Program-made: the position numbers and the translations under genes
IMG/VR virus record: IMGVR_UViG_3300012000_000027
Span: 15,246-49,457 of that record
From: a virus
Length of the DNA stretch: 34,212 bases
Strand: one strand, 5' to 3'
Notes under the pieces: model-generated
Databases searched by the model: none
Seen by the model: only the letters and a program-made list of their open reading frames with translations
What the model was told of the DNA's origin: nothing
In this document: positions 861 through 29,353 of the stretch, one piece after another
How positions within the stretch are numbered: position 1 is the first letter of the stretch
How the letters are laid out: every line of letters starts with the position of its first letter

Positions 861-3800
861 TCATTTTGTAATTCCACCAGTATTTCTCAATCCATATCCC
901 CTTCTTTGGATAGTTGGGAATGTTGTTAATCCAGAATTTATAGTTTTATAACTTACTGCAATTGAAATTGGATTTGAATCTCTACTAAATCCTGATAATC
1001 TTCCCCAAGAAAAACTGCCAACATTAAGTCCATTTGTACTCAATCCGACAATAGAAGTTCTCGAATCTATGTTACAAGTAACAATTCCAGTAACTAAATC
1101 AATCGAATGAATCTTGTAGATATTATCTAAGAAAGTAGTTCCAATTCCAACTTTAGTATCATTATTTGTATCAATAGAAGTTACTCCCGTTCCAACAGTT
1201 GTATTATAAATGTAAATTGGGTATCCTGTTGCCAATCCAACTACAGAATTTAAATTAAATTTCAATCCAAGAGAAGTTCCAATTCCGGATGAAGTTGAAA
1301 TTCCAGTGATAATTCCAGATTTTCCATTTACACCAATCACTCCATATATTGATTCATTAGAAATAGATGGTAATGGAACAATAACCTGTGGTGGCATTTT
1401 AATACTATATCCCAATCCAGGATTTGTAATTGTAATTGGAGTTGTTAGACTTCCTGAAGAAGAGACTGCGATAGTTGCTGTTGCAGTGGATCCAATACCA
1501 ATACCAACTCCCATCGGTAATAAAGTCGAAACACCAACTGTCAATGGTGCGGAGATCTTTACAGTAACTGATGCTCCAGTATATCCGCTTCCAGGGTTAT
1601 TAATTGATAATGATTGAATTGTACCTGCTGCAGAAACCACAGCGGTAACTGCAGCAGAGACGGGATCACTATCACCACTATCAATAATAAGTGCATTAAA
1701 ATTCGGAGATACTAAGTTCTCATAATTGAAAAATTGTGCATCGTCTACAAATATTTCAGTATCGGTAGATGAAAAATCTTTAATAATTCTTGCTGCAGGA
1801 TATACTAAAGGTTCAAGTGAATCTCTTGACTTATAAACCCTTTCACCATTAATAGTTTGATCAACTTTCTGCTTTGTCCAATACAGAGGTTTTGGATTTT
1901 CGGTATCTATTCCTTGATCCAAATATAGATTAGTTTCAAATGTATCAGAAGAAGTTATATTAAATACTGTTCTTGGATTTTGGGATATTGTTGAAGTAAT
2001 ATCATTATTTCTAATAACTTGTACAATATCACCAGTTTTCAATGATGGTGTTACTGATGTTTGTTTCGAATCAACTCCTTTTGTTCCAGCATAGAAGAAT
2101 ACTGAGATATTGTCTTCTATTTTTGGTGCATCCGTAAAAGTAAATGAAGTTCCACCATCAAATTGATAAGAAACACCAGGATCTTGTATTACACCATTGA
2201 TGAAAATCAATAATATTGAACTAAGATCTATTTCAGAACCCGCACCAGATTCAATACTTAAAAGTGAATTATTATAGTAAAGTGGGAATCTTTTTCTAAT
2301 TCCATCTTGATAATTTTTAAGACTATCAATATAGTTTAATTCTCCAAATTGCCATGCAGAAAATGAATCATTGAAAACATCCAAAACAGTTACTTGGAAT
2401 TGTTCCAATGGTGATGATAGTCCTTTAGCAGTAACTAAACCAACAGGAGTAAATACATCTCCACGATTAAATCCATATCCAGATCTGGTAATTTTAAATG
2501 ATTTGACCTGGAATAATGTAGATCCAATTCCAGTTGTAGAACTAGATCCAACTTCAACATTCATTAAAAGTCCAACTCCAGTGGCAGTTGTTGTACCTAT
2601 ACCCAATCTAGAAACTCCTATAATTGGCATATTTTCATAACTTGGAGGAGCGATTTGAATTCTTGGATTTGAAGAATATCCAGATCCACCACCAATAACA
2701 TTAAATCTAAGAGTACCTCCCACACCAACTGTAGCAGTTATGTTTGCCCCAGATCCTGAAACATCAGTAACTCCAACAGAAACTGTTCCATAATATCCAG
2801 AACCCAAAATATCAGTAGTTCCTATACCAACAGATACAATTGATCCACCCGATACTACAGCAGTGACAGATGCGCCTACAAGAGGTGCATAACCTAGTCC
2901 TGGGGTAGAACCAAGGGAAATGATTAATCCCCCTCTTGGAAGTTGATTCTGATTAACATCGGAAACAGATTGAACTGGGGGATAATCACTAGAAGTTCTT
3001 ATTCCAGTAAATACTATACTAGTGATTCCAGAATTGCTATCTTCAATAATTGAAAAATTATTTGAAGTATTATTAAAAGTAGATGGTGATTGGAAGAAAT
3101 TGTTTATAAAAACAATACCATTTCCGCCACTTGTACCTAGTCCAACAGTATTGATTCCTTGAGTTGTTAATCTATATGTTTGTCCTATTCCAGTAAATTG
3201 ATTAGAAATATCATCATAAATTATATTTGTGGTGTAATCTTGTCTCAAAAATACTCTACCAGTAAAGGAAGATTTTGGAAACTCTAAATTGCCTGTAGTT
3301 TTTGCATTTTGTGGATTACCATAAGGTGCTTGTGTGAAATAGATTTGATTTCCAACTATATTAAATGAACCTCTATAAATCCTAGCATTTGTAGAATCTG
3401 TATGAGTGGTTATTGCTGATCCAATATAACCTCGTTCAACTTCAACTAAATTGTATGATCCAGTACTTTGAACTGGGCCAATACTTGTAGTTCCAAGTCC
3501 AACATTAGAAATCTTCATGTACTCATTATCAACTTTGAGTATATCATTTGGATATATTGATGTAATACCACTTAAAGATAATATTGTTCTTCCAATACCA
3601 ATAACTCCATTATTAATAAGATTATAATTAATTGGAGTGAATGAAATTGGATATTGTACAATACCATCAATCGTAATGATTGATTTTTCATTCTTCTTAG
3701 CCATTTCTAATTGATGACTATTTCCTTGACCATAAGAGGTAAATGTAACACAAATTCCCGAAATAGCAAAATTTTTGGTCAATGCTAATTTAAAAGTATC

Positions 3801-16957: not shown

Positions 16958-16986
16958 ATCATACAATATTATGTAGCATTTGTCAA
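16958..16986 (-). promoter_or_regulatory. Sigma-70-type promoter for the glycosyltransferase gene
   Basis: On the minus strand, TTGACA (16981-16986) and TATGAT (16958-16963) are separated by exactly 17 bp. The -35 element overlaps the last codons of the AbrB-like gene. The -10 is 22 nt upstream of the ATG. This is a textbook early-type promoter and points to host RNA polymerase. Confidence 0.75.
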
Positions 16987-17156
16987 TTATTCTTTTCTGA
17001 AAGAATCACTTCGGTTCCTTCGATTTTAAAACTAATTTCAGTATCTTCATACCATGAGAGTTCGTTTGCTACGATCTCTGGAATAATCACATAATAATCG
17101 CCAGTAATTGGATCAACCTGTACGGACTTAAAAATTTCTCCCGAATTTTTTTTCAT
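16983..17156 (-). CDS. Small AbrB/SpoVT-like protein (57 aa)
   Basis: 57 residues beginning MKKNSGEIFKSVQVDPITGD. The pattern DYYVIIPEIVANELSWYEDTEIS followed by a short strand and VILSE resembles the swapped-hairpin AbrB fold: two strands, a helix after IPE, then W/D and a final strand. Members bind DNA as dimers, and T4-like cyanophages often have one. It could be a small transcription regulator. A TATAAT lies 30 nt upstream of the ATG. The stop codon overlaps the promoter of the downstream glycosyltransferase-like gene. The family call is by pattern only. Confidence 0.65.
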   Translation of the reverse strand: MKKNSGEIFKSVQVDPITGDYYVIIPEIVANELSWYEDTEISFKIEGTEVILSEKNN

Positions 17157-19087: not shown

Positions 19088-19324
19088 TTAATTTTCAAGG
19101 TTCGCCTGCTCACAATAGGCACCAGAGATCGATCCCGCAACCATTAAACGGTATCCGCCTGATACCGAATCCCAGATCCGTTTGATCAGCGCTGCTGATC
19201 GTTCAAAGGTTGACGGATGGGGTGGCGACATGGTTGGGATCGGCACCAGCGGCACCAGCGGCACCAGGAGCATCAGCGGCACCAGCGGCACCATCAGGAT
19301 CCGTATCATCAGGATCCGTATCAT
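19088..19324 (-). CDS. Hypothetical protein with repeat-generated hydrophobic N-terminus
   Basis: The C-terminal part, from MSPPHPSTFERSAALIKRIW to the stop, looks like ordinary coding sequence (47 codons from an ATG at 19231). The frame stays open upstream through two DNA tandem repeats that encode MIRIL units and then VPL units, a hydrophobic lead that could act as a membrane anchor. In-frame ATGs occur at 19339, 19324, 19309 and 19294. The one at 19324 is 27 nt from the TATACT at 19352-19357, the same spacing as at neighbouring genes, so it is chosen here. If the repeats are only leader, the protein is the 47-residue form. Confidence 0.45.
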   Translation of the reverse strand: MIRILMIRILMVPLVPLMLLVPLVPLVPIPTMSPPHPSTFERSAALIKRIWDSVSGGYRLMVAGSISGAYCEQANLEN

Positions 19325-19349
19325 CAGGATCCGTATCATCAGGATCCGT
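19235..19349. repeat. Two adjacent tandem repeats (9-bp and 15-bp units)
   Basis: Plus strand: about five copies of GGCACCAGC-like 9-mers (19235-19293, one interrupted), followed by 3-4 copies of the 15-mer ATCAGGATCCGTATC (about 19293-19349). Both units are multiples of three, so copy number can change without breaking the minus-strand frame. Confidence 0.8.
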
Positions 19350-19447
19350 AAAGTATAAAGAACTAAAACAGGACTAAGTGTAGAGAATTAAACCACACCA
19401 CTGACTCACAGACTACACTTAATCCTGAGTTAGTTCTTTATACTTTA
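19349..19447. repeat. Long inverted repeat with 34-nt arms
   Basis: Arms at 19349-19382 and 19414-19447 are reverse complements at 31 of 34 positions, with a 31-nt loop. Each arm carries a TATACT that reads outwards (minus strand on the left, plus strand on the right). The left TATACT is placed to act as -10 for the 19088-19324 gene. RNA read across it would fold into a very long hairpin. Confidence 0.8.
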
Positions 19448-19458
19448 TAACTTCTACT

Positions 19459-19617
19459 TCATTCTTGTTCTTCATTCATTGCAGAAAATATATGCATCTT
19501 GTCAATTATACTTGAACACGCGATTGCATCATCATCATCATCTGTACATCCTAGGTGCGCGAATATAACGTCATATATCACATCGAGTTCGCGTGAAGTG
19601 AATGCGGGAATGATCAT
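19459..19617 (-). CDS. Small acidic hypothetical protein (52 aa)
   Basis: Starts MIIPAFTSRELDVIYDVIFA and contains a run of five aspartates (HLGCTDDDDDAIACSS). The opening, a strand followed by TSRELDVIYDVI helix, resembles small phage proteins with a sensor-like helix, but no function is known. A longer in-frame reading runs through a palindromic repeat array upstream and is not credible. The ATG at 19617 begins the ordinary coding part. The array TCTCGTCGAGA (19657-19754) lies immediately upstream and may control it. Confidence 0.65.
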   Translation of the reverse strand: MIIPAFTSRELDVIYDVIFAHLGCTDDDDDAIACSSIIDKMHIFSAMNEEQE

Positions 19618-19656: not shown

Positions 19657-19754
19657 TCTCGTCGAGATGTGTGTATGTGCGTCTCGTCGAGATGTGTGTA
19701 TGTGCGTCTCGTCGAGATAATGTGCGTTAAATGTGCATGTGCGTCTCGTCGAGA
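19657..19754. repeat. Array of four TCTCGTCGAGA palindromes
   Basis: Copies at 19657-19667, 19682-19692, 19707-19717 and 19744-19754. The first three are spaced 25 bp apart in a near-perfect tandem unit with TGTGTGTATGTGCG between palindromes; the fourth is 37 bp away. The array fills the gap between two same-strand small genes. The palindrome suggests a dimeric DNA-binding protein. Confidence 0.85.
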
Positions 19755-19756
19755 TT

Positions 19757-19924
19757 CTAATAGTGATGCCTCGACATTGTGCAGTTTGGATCATTGTACC
19801 AATCAGAATCTTCATAGGATTCTGATACTTTAGGCGCCATCCGAAGCATTAGATCATCGGATAATTTACACATTCCAGTTGTAACTAACTCAAGGATTTC
19901 GTCAGCAGTGAGAAAAGTTTGCAT
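19757..19924 (-). CDS. Small hypothetical protein (55 aa)
   Basis: Starts MQTFLTADEILELVTTGMCK. Helical N-terminal half, then an acidic, aromatic tail (SESYEDSDWYNDPNCTMSRH). Not recognised. The stop codon lies 2 nt from the last TCTCGTCGAGA palindrome. Upstream a GGGGGG/CCCCCC hairpin separates it from the next gene. Confidence 0.65.
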   Translation of the reverse strand: MQTFLTADEILELVTTGMCKLSDDLMLRMAPKVSESYEDSDWYNDPNCTMSRHHY

Positions 19925-21087: not shown

Positions 21088-21330
21088 TCAGCGACAACCA
21101 TCATGCCATGCTGTACCGCAGGAATTGTTAGCGATCATATCATCATCGGAAGGTCCCCACCCTTCGATATATTCGAGGATGGTGACAAGATCGCCAACCT
21201 TATCATAAAGGTCTGCAGGGATGTCAAGATCATTCAGAATCTTGGTCCAAACCGGCAGAGTAGCAGCGGCGACGGTGATAGCGTCGCAGCGGTTCAGAAT
21301 GGCGGTGGCAGCGGAAGGATCGGGAAGCAT
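21088..21330 (-). CDS. Hypothetical protein (80 aa)
   Basis: Not recognised. Mostly helical: SAATAILNRCDAITVAAATL, then VWTKILNDLDIPADLYDKVG, then DLVTILEYIEGWGPSDDDMI and a short Cys/His-containing tail. Composition is GC-rich with an alanine-rich start. It ends directly before a strong terminator, and the upstream gap has the standard hairpin and junction. Confidence 0.68.
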   Translation of the reverse strand: MLPDPSAATAILNRCDAITVAAATLPVWTKILNDLDIPADLYDKVGDLVTILEYIEGWGPSDDDMIANNSCGTAWHDGCR

Positions 21331-22997: not shown

Positions 22998-23186
22998 TCA
23001 TAATTGTATCATCCAATCCGCATCATTGTCAAGCGTCACCCAGAAGTGATTGCGCCCATTATGTGATGTAAGAAACACGCGATTGCCCGTGCGCTGCTCT
23101 ATGATACACATGTGATCGCCTTGCATGATGTTCGAGAACCTATTTTTCGCTTTGCGCGAGATTGGTGTAACGAATGCGGTTTTCAT
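22998..23186 (-). CDS. Small basic hypothetical protein (62 aa)
   Basis: MKTAFVTPISRKAKNRFSNI, then MQGDHMCIIEQRTGNRVFLT and a final WVTLDNDADWMIQL. The GDHMCIIEQRTGNRVFLTS stretch reads like a small SH3-like beta barrel, a common fold among phage accessory proteins; no specific family. The ATG is 11 nt from the first of three TCTCGWCGAGA palindromes, so it is one of the three genes that may share control through them. Confidence 0.68.
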   Translation of the reverse strand: MKTAFVTPISRKAKNRFSNIMQGDHMCIIEQRTGNRVFLTSHNGRNHFWVTLDNDADWMIQL

Positions 23187-23196
23187 GATGTGTGTG

Positions 23197-23248
23197 TCTC
23201 GACGAGATTGTGTACATGGTCTCGACGAGATTGTGTGTCTCGTCGAGA
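23197..23248. repeat. Three TCTCGWCGAGA palindromes
   Basis: Copies at 23197-23207, 23220-23230 (TCTCGACGAGA) and 23238-23248 (TCTCGTCGAGA), in the 78-nt gap directly upstream of the 22998-23186 gene. TTGTGTG-like spacers echo those at 19.7 kb. Confidence 0.85.
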
Positions 23249-23469: not shown

Positions 23470-23527
23470 AGTATAGGGCATCTAGAGGGGTCTGGGAGAC
23501 CCCTTGTGCCAGTTGTCAGAGTGTCAC
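23470..23527 (-). repeat. Gene-junction module
   Basis: Junction TGTGACACTCTGACAACTGG (23504-23527, gene orientation), stem AGGGGTCT/AGACCCCT with a 3-nt loop (23486-23504) and TATACT (23470-23475). One of the closest matches to the consensus. Confidence 0.8.
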
Positions 23528-23569
23528 ATCCTCCAGCAATTCAGGATTGTACTCTTCAACCTCAGTCAT
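23516..23569 (-). CDS. Possible 17-residue peptide
   Basis: MTEVEEYNPELLEDVTL, with its ATG overlapping the stop of the preceding gene (TGATG) and its last codons formed by the junction element. The overlap suggests coupling, but the length makes it uncertain; it may be a remnant of a longer gene. Confidence 0.25.
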   Translation of the reverse strand: MTEVEEYNPELLEDVTL

Positions 23570-26195: not shown

Positions 26196-26348
26196 TCAGT
26201 ACCAGTCATAAGAGTCTTTGATGGTAGCATGGACATCCTCATCCCCTTCGAGTTCTAATAACTCTTTCCAGTCCATGTTTTCTATGTTCAGGTCATCATA
26301 ACACATAATATCCAGTGTAACTCGTACCAGGCGCCTTTGTGCTAACAT
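26196..26348 (-). CDS. Small acidic hypothetical protein (50 aa), cyanophage type
   Basis: MLAQRRLVRVTLDIMCYDDL, then NIENMDWKELLELEGDEDVH and a short end in YDWY. The pattern V.VTLDI.CYDDL.I.N.DW.ELL.LEGDE.V...I resembles a small cyanophage family of unknown function. It has one of the best promoters in the window (TTGCAT-N17-TATAAT, 26372-26400), which overlaps the last codons of the upstream 46-residue gene. Confidence 0.7.
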   Translation of the reverse strand: MLAQRRLVRVTLDIMCYDDLNIENMDWKELLELEGDEDVHATIKDSYDWY

Positions 26349-26371: not shown

Positions 26372-26400
26372 ATTATATCATGCATAATGACGATATGCAA
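26372..26400 (-). promoter_or_regulatory. Sigma-70-type promoter for the 50-aa gene
   Basis: On the minus strand TTGCAT (26395-26400) and TATAAT (26372-26377) with exactly 17 bp between. The ATG is 23 nt downstream of the -10. Confidence 0.75.
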
Positions 26401-26518
26401 GAGATTCGTAATCTTGCGCGTCGCGTGCATAATCCTCGTCGAGATCCTGTGCATACTCGTCGAGATCCTGTGCATAATCGTTGCTGTATGTATAGTCGAG
26501 ATCGTAGTCGTCGTACAT
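26378..26518 (-). CDS. Tyr/Asp-rich 46-residue protein with DYAQDLDE repeats
   Basis: MYDDYDLDYTYSNDYAQDLD, continuing EYAQDLDEDYARDAQDYESL and a short end. Strongly acidic; tyrosine and aspartate make up about half of it. The unit QDLDE is coded by the same bases as the palindrome (GATCTCGACGAG), so DNA repeat and protein repeat coincide. Promoter TTGCAT-N17-TATGAT lies 30 nt upstream with a palindrome inside its spacer. The composition would suit a DNA-mimic or binding protein, but this is inference; it could also be a chance frame through repeats. Confidence 0.5.
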   Translation of the reverse strand: MYDDYDLDYTYSNDYAQDLDEYAQDLDEDYARDAQDYESLAYRHYA

Positions 26519-26634
26519 AACTCGTCGAGATCCTGTGGTACTGTGTGATCATAGCACGATTCTCGACGAGATGCAAGTGCAATACCTGGTCTCGTCGAGA
26601 ATTATGAATCTATATATGAGATTTCGTCGAGAAA
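26434..26634. repeat. Cluster of CTCGTCGAG palindromes
   Basis: Exact TCTCGWCGAGA at 26561-26571 and 26590-26600; one-mismatch copies at 26434-26444, 26455-26465 and 26520-26530; a degenerate TTTCGTCGAGAAA at 26622-26634. The first three are inside the 46-residue gene or touch its start, the others lie upstream of it. Confidence 0.8.
26548..26576 (-). promoter_or_regulatory. Promoter with palindrome in the spacer
   Basis: On the minus strand TTGCAT (26571-26576) and TATGAT (26548-26553), 17 bp apart. TCTCGTCGAGA (26561-26571) occupies the spacer beside the -35, a classic repressor operator position. Confidence 0.65.
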
Positions 26635-26699
26635 TGTGTGCTTTTGTGAACTTATAAGGCATTCTTATGGGTTTTTTGGGCGCTCGCGGGGGGTGGTGC

Positions 26700-26728
26700 T
26701 TGACAAACTCCGCGTTTTATGTTACACT
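26700..26728 (+). promoter_or_regulatory. Sigma-70-type promoter towards the 341-aa GIY-YIG gene
   Basis: TTGACA (26700-26705) and TACACT (26723-26728) on the plus strand with a 17-bp spacer. The leader to the ATG at 26947 would be about 210 nt and includes the repeats. Confidence 0.6.
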
Positions 26729-26740
26729 GCCTAAACTTGC

Positions 26741-26835
26741 ATAAGAACTGGAGCATTTATAAGGCATTTATAAGGCATTAATGGACATTTATAAGAACTG
26801 GAGCATTTATAAGGCATTTATAAGGCATTTATAAT
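26741..26835. repeat. 39-bp direct repeat containing GGCATTTATAA units
   Basis: 26741-26779 and 26791-26829 are identical over 39 bp. Inside and between them GCATTTATAA or ACATTTATAA occurs six times, mostly at 11-bp spacing. On the minus strand each gives TATAAATG, one base from the late promoter consensus. Confidence 0.85.
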
Positions 26836-26946: not shown

Positions 26947-27972
26947 ATGGCATTCATCTACTCAATTACAAATCTTGAGAATCAAAAATTATATGTCGGT
27001 AAGACTACTAAATCAAATCCGTATGATAGATGGAAAGAACACATAGCAAACAGTAAGAATAATTTAAATGAAAACAACTCTGCTCATTCAATGCCTATTG
27101 TAAGAGCAATCAGTAAATATGGATCAGATAAGTTTAAATTCAGAGTATTAGAAGAATGTAATGATGATAAAGTGAATCAACGTGAAATCTATTGGATAGA
27201 AAGATTAAATGCATGTGGTAAAAATGGATATAATGTTACTCTAGGTGGTGAAGGTATAAACAAATTACCAAAGCAATGGAAGAATCATCCAAATAGTAAA
27301 GAGGTAAGTTGTTATACATTAGAAGATGAATGGGTTGCAGATTATGATACAACAGGTGTAGCAGCATTTCATATATTAGGGCGTAATCCAAATAAAAGTG
27401 AAAAAAATTGCATTAAGGCATGTATTAAAGGAATCACATTTCAATCACTTGGTTATAGATGGGCATGGAAAGGTGAAACTCCTAAGATAATAGAAAAGAG
27501 AATAAATCGTCGTGGTAATGTATATGGCATTAACCCGTTATTAGGACATAAAAAGATGTGGAAATCTGCTGCAGATGCGGCCGAAGAAATAGAAGGAAAC
27601 CGTAAAAATAATAATGCAATACACCAATCATTAAAGAGTCCAAATAAAGCGAAACTACAAGTAAAAGGTTGGTATTTTTTCAGAAAGAAAAATGATGCGC
27701 TAGGAAATTGGAAACCAACAACTAACAACAGAGGAACTGAATACTATAAAGAATTGGCAAAAAAGAGTAATGAAAAAAGAAAAAAACCAGTTCATGGTAT
27801 AAACATTAAAACAGGTGAGATTATAAAATTTAACAGTATAAGTGAGGCATCATTCTTTATTAAAGGAGAAGGAAATTATAAGGCAACTGCTAACATCATT
27901 AATAATATTAAAAAAATTGAACGAAATGAAACTTGGTGCAATGCTTATGGTTGTCGTTGGTATTATTCATAA
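26947..27972 (+). CDS. GIY-YIG homing endonuclease (341 aa)
   Basis: Catalytic domain at residues 1-95: FIYSITNLENQKLYVGKTTK (IYS...LYVGKT), YDRWKEHI with the conserved Arg, FRVLEEC and NQREIYWIERLNACGKNGYN with the conserved Glu and Asn, then VTLGGEG. From about residue 115 on there are repeated DNA-binding modules of the NUMOD/IENR type (KMWKSAADAAEEIEGNRKNN with a nearby GWYFF; KFNSISEASFFIKGEGNYKA with CRWYY). It resembles T4 Seg proteins and intron-encoded endonucleases of phages. Plus strand; AT-rich, unlike the GC-richer genes to its left, in keeping with recent arrival. The 3' end overlaps the next minus-strand gene by 6 nt. Confidence 0.92.
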   Translation: MAFIYSITNLENQKLYVGKTTKSNPYDRWKEHIANSKNNLNENNSAHSMPIVRAISKYGSDKFKFRVLEECNDDKVNQREIYWIERLNACGKNGYNVTLGGEGINKLPKQWKNHPNSKEVSCYTLEDEWVADYDTTGVAAFHILGRNPNKSEKNCIKACIKGITFQSLGYRWAWKGETPKIIEKRINRRGNVYGINPLLGHKKMWKSAADAAEEIEGNRKNNNAIHQSLKSPNKAKLQVKGWYFFRKKNDALGNWKPTTNNRGTEYYKELAKKSNEKRKKPVHGINIKTGEIIKFNSISEASFFIKGEGNYKATANIINNIKKIERNETWCNAYGCRWYYS

Positions 27973-28792: not shown

Positions 28793-28853
28793 TATTATAA
28801 GGGCAATGAGAGAGAAGAGATTGCGATCTTGTGCCAGTTATTGAAGTGTCACA
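28793..28853 (-). repeat. Gene-junction module
   Basis: Junction TGTGACACTTCAATAACTGG (28829-28853), a weak GCAAT/ATTGC stem (28803-28824) and TATAAT (28793-28798) for the 117-residue gene. Confidence 0.75.
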
Positions 28854-29302: not shown

Positions 29303-29326
29303 TTGTGCCAGTTGTTGAAGTGTCAC
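29303..29326 (-). repeat. Gene-junction element without strong hairpin
   Basis: TGTGACACTTCAACAACTGG in gene orientation, one of the cleanest copies, between the 47-codon gene and the 137-residue gene. Confidence 0.8.
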
Positions 29327-29353
29327 AGTCAAATGCAATGAATGATTATTGTT

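Follow-up and report, generated by a model that had tools for sequence, protein, structure and literature searches.

The window, a 34,212-nucleotide stretch of DNA, is part of a 49,457-base IMG/VR virus record and was placed with the T4-like cyanophages by a gp25-like ORF and its neighbours. The nearest named records were S-SRM01, S-SKS1 and S-SSM7, at about 78-80% identity over short stretches. Read from 26576 to 26548, the minus strand is TTGCAT-CTCGTCGAGAATCGTGC-TATGAT, with a 17-bp spacer, and 29 bp downstream of the -10 hexamer begins an acidic ORF of 46 aa, which fell below the 90-aa threshold of the initial ORF listing (Table 1). This ORF had homologues in S-SRM01 (87% identity), S-T4, S-SKS1 and a marine single-cell virus, and a diverged counterpart, PSSM2_098, in P-SSM2; its product matched no PHROG or Pfam family. 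Many viruses that infect cyanobacteria of oceans and lakes had the promoter and the 46-aa gene together. Further along, the TTATAAGGCATTT repeats of window positions 26652-26834 adjoin a plus-strand promoter-like TTGACA-17-TACACT (26700-26728), which precedes a GIY-YIG-like ORF at 26947.

The palindrome was present in nine exact copies in the window, far beyond chance, as shuffles gave 0.00. These copies fell into three clusters, of which the one at the 46-aa gene spanned 26434-26632. The most distant, cluster 1, had a counterpart in S-SRM01 at 90907-91006. No obvious -10 or -35 was seen at clusters 1 and 2, so the role of the palindrome there may differ. In relatives, site-to-site distances grouped near 22-24, 31-33 and 42-43 bp, approximately whole helical turns; strict helical phasing of the sites (R about 0.45, among related sequences) is only suggestive. 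Across contigs, 49 sites of the TATAGTCGAGA type were found in the context of the in-gene site nearest the start codon (26491-26501).

Several other repeats were recorded in the window. A 35-bp inverted repeat, 91% complementary with a 29-nt loop, lies at the end of the MIIPAF gene (19349-19447) and is possibly a terminator-like hairpin, and a 9-bp tandem repeat (CGGCACCAG and related) occupies 19223-19321, a stretch with no long ORF. A second dispersed motif, TGTGCCAGTT-N6-GTGTCACA, of about 24 bp, was present in nine or more copies between 20362 and 33297 (for example 23504-23528, 28830-28853 and 29304-29327). It was located at gene boundaries, often directly after GGGGGG-N8-CCCCCC hairpins. 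Blocks of GTGGTTGACTNNNNAAGTATA were repeated between genes at 21330, 22087, 23446 and 24886; on the minus strand at least two of them lie directly upstream of small genes, and they are possibly a common regulatory element.

Table 1. Features of the window bearing on the putative promoter, the palindrome clusters and the candidate binding protein.
Feature	Position	Strand	Basis or remark
57-aa AbrB/MazE-fold protein, candidate binder, near gp25	16983-17156	-	predicted fold; presence in cluster-bearing phages
MIIPAF gene, flanks cluster 1	19459-19617	-	
Cluster 1, four palindromes flanked by two small genes	19657-19754	.	
LVTTG gene, flanks cluster 1	19757-19924	-	
62-aa PHROG 1653 gene, downstream of cluster 2	22998-23186	-	
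Cluster 2, three palindromes directly upstream of the PHROG 1653 gene	23197-23248	.	ATG at 23186
Second gene, 50 aa, PHROG 12516 (function unknown)	26196-26348	-	follows the 46-aa gene
46-aa acidic ORF MYDDYDLDYTYSNDYAQDLDEYAQDLDEDYARDAQDYESLAYRHYA, first gene of the putative promoter	26378-26518	-	474 relatives among IMG/VR pattern matches
In-gene site TCTCGACGAGG	26434-26444	.	codon bias
In-gene site TCTCGACGAGT	26455-26465	.	codon bias at LD[EDY]
In-gene site (TCTCGACTATA on minus strand)	26491-26501	.	codon bias
Palindrome variant TCTCGACGAGT (minus strand), ends 1 bp before start codon	26520-26530	.	
Extended -10, TGC-TATGAT (TATGAT 26548-26553)	26548-26556	-	conserved as TGCTATAAT/TGCTACAAT in relatives
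Palindrome TCTCGTCGAGA in promoter spacer	26561-26571	.	same place in P-SSM2
-35 hexamer TTGCAT	26571-26576	-	letters; TTGACA in many relatives
Upstream palindrome TCTCGACGAGA	26590-26600	.	spacing classes in relatives
CATATATAG, between two palindromes	26610-26618	-	TATAAATA in some relatives, as in T4 late promoters
Upstream palindrome variant TCTCGACGAAA	26622-26632	.	

The first-pass annotation had reported two minus-strand hexamers 17 bp apart, with a palindrome in the spacer touching the -35. Re-reading of the letters bore out both observations, the first T of TCTCGTCGAGA being the last T of TTGCAT. Taken alone, the hexamers were at chance level, as a 17-bp pair of equal quality occurs once per 263 bases of strand. 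A generic consensus scan of the window returned 9 promoters against 6.9 +/- 2.9 in shuffles, and the promoter at 26548-26576 was not among its matches. Since TTGCAT agrees with the consensus TTGACA at only three of six bases and the scan did not recover the promoter, the window by itself was not convincing, and the question was decided by comparison with relatives.

Relatives for this comparison were selected by protein rather than by promoter, and 50 distinct upstream regions were kept. A TTG followed after 17 bp by at least five of the six bases of TATAAT was found in 39 of the 50 regions and with an 18-bp spacer in another 8, where chance would give about 0.27 per spacing; TTGNNN at 17-18 bp from the -10 was thus kept in 47 of 50. 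The -10 carried a TGN extension, TGCTATGAT in the window and TGCTATAAT or TGCTACAAT in most close relatives. The dyad lay inside the spacer in 31 of the 39 regions with the 17-bp spacing, and a dyad lay within 8 bp of the ATG in 46 of 50. A pattern scan for TTGACA-(0-1)-dyad-(5-6)-TATAAT, allowing spacers of 16-18 bp, matched 72 contigs, 49 of them distinct, and the spacer was 17 bp in all 49; a scrambled dyad of the same composition gave 0 matches in the same scan.

The arrangement was also present in cultured phages. Upstream of PSSM2_098, the Prochlorococcus phage P-SSM2 has TTGACA-a-TCTCGACTAGA-tctgg-TATAAT, with a second dyad 5 bp before the ATG. The dyad of S-T4 overlies the -35 position, and S-SKS1 keeps TTGACA-N17-TATAAT and the flanking sites with a degraded spacer dyad. 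Hexamers 16-18 bp apart, as in a sigma-70-type promoter, are thus conserved above chance, together with a dyad overlapping the promoter elements, as in an operator. Conservation of the -10, the -35, the spacing and the palindrome together in dozens of phages strongly supports the earlier proposal that an operator-like dyad lies in the spacer of a promoter, and on this comparative ground the promoter at 26548-26576 is very probably real. That annotation had also seen here a concrete possible job for the dispersed palindrome. The promoter dyad is indeed conserved, but the job was drawn too narrowly, as the dyad recurs at the start codon and in the coding sequence, and at least two further small genes have it nearby.

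The distribution of the sites was assessed in a first set of relatives, obtained by scanning contigs for paired palindromes, and in 18 named cyanophage records searched whole. Among the matches listed for the first contig set, 82 clusters lay at the 46-aa gene, 75 of them with a PHROG 12516 gene nearby. Other clusters among these matches were at PHROG 1653 or LVTTG-type genes, like clusters 2 and 1 of the window, and 31 were elsewhere. Of the 18 named records, S-SRM01, S-SKS1, S-T4, P-SSM2, P-SSM5 and two single-cell viruses carried multi-site clusters; S-SSM7, S-CREM2, S-CAM1 and ACG-2014d had only two scattered sites each, and no sites were found in S-PM2, P-SSM7, ACG-2014f, B23, S-CAM7 and Sf-CH8. 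Genomes with clusters had them in one to three places. Because the sites are too short, a BLAST search of named phages with the array returned nothing useful. Among 257 Gb of contigs from bacteria and archaea, only 56 stretches had paired sites, and none was titled as cyanobacterial. A host operator was dropped as an explanation, since the paired-site scan indicated that the clusters are phage-specific; possibly a host protein uses single sites.

Nearly every family member has a site adjoining its start codon, and sites also lie upstream of other genes; the palindrome could accordingly be read as an RNA element, with hairpins at the ribosome-binding site controlling translation or mRNA decay. 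The half-sites do not favour this reading. Among pairs of TCTCG/TCTAG half-sites, both carried C in 86 cases, the two were mixed in 34 and both carried A in 7, against 83.5, 38.9 and 4.5 under independence. One-sided changes were therefore as frequent as independence predicts, and these counts held no excess of compensatory changes across the stem, the mark of an RNA hairpin. The predicted stem is worth only about -2 kcal/mol and is lost in the common mixed variant, and sites lie upstream of and within the promoter as well. We regard an RNA element as very unlikely. Since the half-sites vary independently, a protein dimer on double-stranded DNA fits better than an RNA stem, and the pattern points to a dyad that is probably read in that way. 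The coding sequence is also constrained. At LD[EDY] in the 46-aa family, Leu was written CTC in 413 of 478 cases (86%), Asp GAC in 424 of 478 and Glu GAG in 307 of 327; in other ORFs of the same contigs, the comparison set, the counts were 15 of 246 (6%), 41 of 246 and 43 of 111. As CTC-GAC-GAG is so far above its use in other ORFs, the in-gene DNA site itself is under selection. This codon constraint and the fixed 17-bp spacing are difficult to reconcile with a proliferating short repeat that has no regulatory role and lies near promoters by chance. Copy number and spacing do differ between phages, and several intergenic gaps hold sites, as such a repeat would predict, but the position relative to the -35, the -10 and the ATG is fixed across diverged phages, which makes this origin highly improbable. 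Homotypic arrays with spacings close to whole helical turns would also suit iteron-like sites for replication, partition or packaging whose overlap with the promoter is incidental. The sites are instead tied to one gene family and its promoter, and most genomes have one dominant cluster, next to the same small gene; we give this explanation next to no weight.

The direction of regulation is a separate matter. In the subclade of the window the -35 is weak (TTGCAT or TTGCAA) and overlapped by the dyad, as expected if a bound protein recruited RNA polymerase. Sites also flank the CATATATA/TATAAATA element, an octamer type that 42 of 48 regions carry upstream, where shuffles gave 5.3, so that a dual-function site might switch between the sigma-70 promoter and this upstream late-type element. 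Many relatives, however, reach the full TTGACA/TATAAT consensus and keep the dyad, which means that no activator is needed, and the register of the dyad to the -35 shifts by -1, 0 or +1, which steric blocking allows. A repressor is therefore the most economical role, and an activator or dual-function site appears unlikely. The simplest account of sites that cover promoter, start codon and gene body alike is repression by steric blocking, with added roadblocks.

Our best reading of these sequences is accordingly a repressor-operator system of the phage, in which each genome has several target clusters. The locus would probably comprise a host-sigma-70-type promoter of a small operon and an array of dimer-bound operators, the operon being on early and then shut off. 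The promoter at 26548-26576 would serve the 46-aa acidic gene and then the PHROG 12516 gene, and the spacer palindrome would be one of an array of TCTMGWCKAGA operators bound by a dimeric DNA-binding protein. The bound protein would cover the -35/spacer face, while copies bound at the start codon and within the gene would act as further roadblocks. Transcription would be on early in infection and off as the binding protein accumulates; a late-type promoter at the CATATATA/TATAAATA element may then take over. We infer repression by the bound protein, a phage origin of that protein and this timing.

A possible binder is the 57-aa phage protein with a predicted AbrB/MazE fold, the best candidate and a weak one. 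Its AlphaFold2 model (mean pLDDT 87.7) has the swapped-hairpin fold; Foldseek matched it to MazE 1ub4_C with probability 1.00 but an E-value of 0.086, and VIA gave Z scores of 6.5 to SpoVT and 6.1 to MazE. The protein belongs to PHROG 661, of unknown function; its S-SRM01 homologue had no Pfam match and its profile no PDB sequence match. All the long records with clusters that were checked contain it, at about 2-10 kb from a cluster (S-SRM01, S-T4, S-SKS1, P-SSM2, P-SSM5, AG-345-F15 and the window), a linkage that common synteny alone could explain; in P-SSM2 it occupies 69246-69407. Against the candidate, homologues are also present in Sf-CH8, S-CAM7 and ACG-2014f; these phages lack TCTMGWCKAGA sites, and no convincing different palindrome array was found near the gene in them. 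The protein is also acidic (5 K/R, 11 D/E); in this it is unlike the AbrB, MazE, SpoVT and VapB swapped-hairpin proteins, of which MazE, SpoVT and AbrB match its predicted fold, and no toxin partner was identified. Neither the 46-aa family gene nor the AbrB-like gene is annotated in the public S-T4 record (L123 (S-T4) 3001-3144; S-T4 171233-171388). Two other proteins were rejected as binders. The PHROG 1653 protein had no homologue found in S-T4, P-SSM2 or S-SKS1. The PHROG 12516 protein, considered as an autorepressor, was not found in P-SSM2, is present in phages without sites and gave a poor model (pLDDT 70).

Sigma-70 promoters with a spacer operator, such as tet, lambda PR/PL and lac-type promoters, have consensus hexamers 17 bp apart and a dyad in or beside the spacer. 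The cyanophage promoter resembles them in its 17-bp spacing and spacer dyad, but its putative operators also cover the start codon and coding sequence, forcing codons. The stoperators of L5-type mycobacteriophages are asymmetric and oriented with transcription. They likewise comprise many dispersed copies of one short operator per phage genome, some outside promoters, whereas the cyanophage sites are symmetric and clustered at few genes. With the early/middle/late programme of T4 the system shares a T4-like phage, a sigma-70-type early promoter and a late-type TATAAATA element, but homologues of motA and asiA are absent from cyanophages (PMC2984593). Early genes of T4-like cyanophages are probably read by unmodified host sigma-70 RNA polymerase, and the control of gene timing without MotA and AsiA has been described as unknown (PMC2984593). 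Sullivan et al. reported program-predicted sigma-70 promoters in these cyanophage genomes (PMC3037559), and the promoter of the 46-aa gene may be among them. We found no mention of the palindrome or of such a repressor-operator in the open-access texts searched.

The palindrome is a concrete cis-element that is conserved and lies at named genes of the cultured phages P-SSM2, S-SRM01, S-T4 and S-SKS1. Its conservation within a promoter suggests an on/off switch for phage genes, and it bears on how T4-like cyanophages time their genes without MotA and AsiA. The in-gene regulatory sites appear to shape the encoded protein. More speculatively, T4-like cyanophages might have a repressor-operator regulon of their own in which a protein, perhaps the acidic one with the AbrB/MazE fold, would shut off early genes without MotA and AsiA, and in which in-gene operators would dictate the amino-acid sequence of a small, widespread protein.
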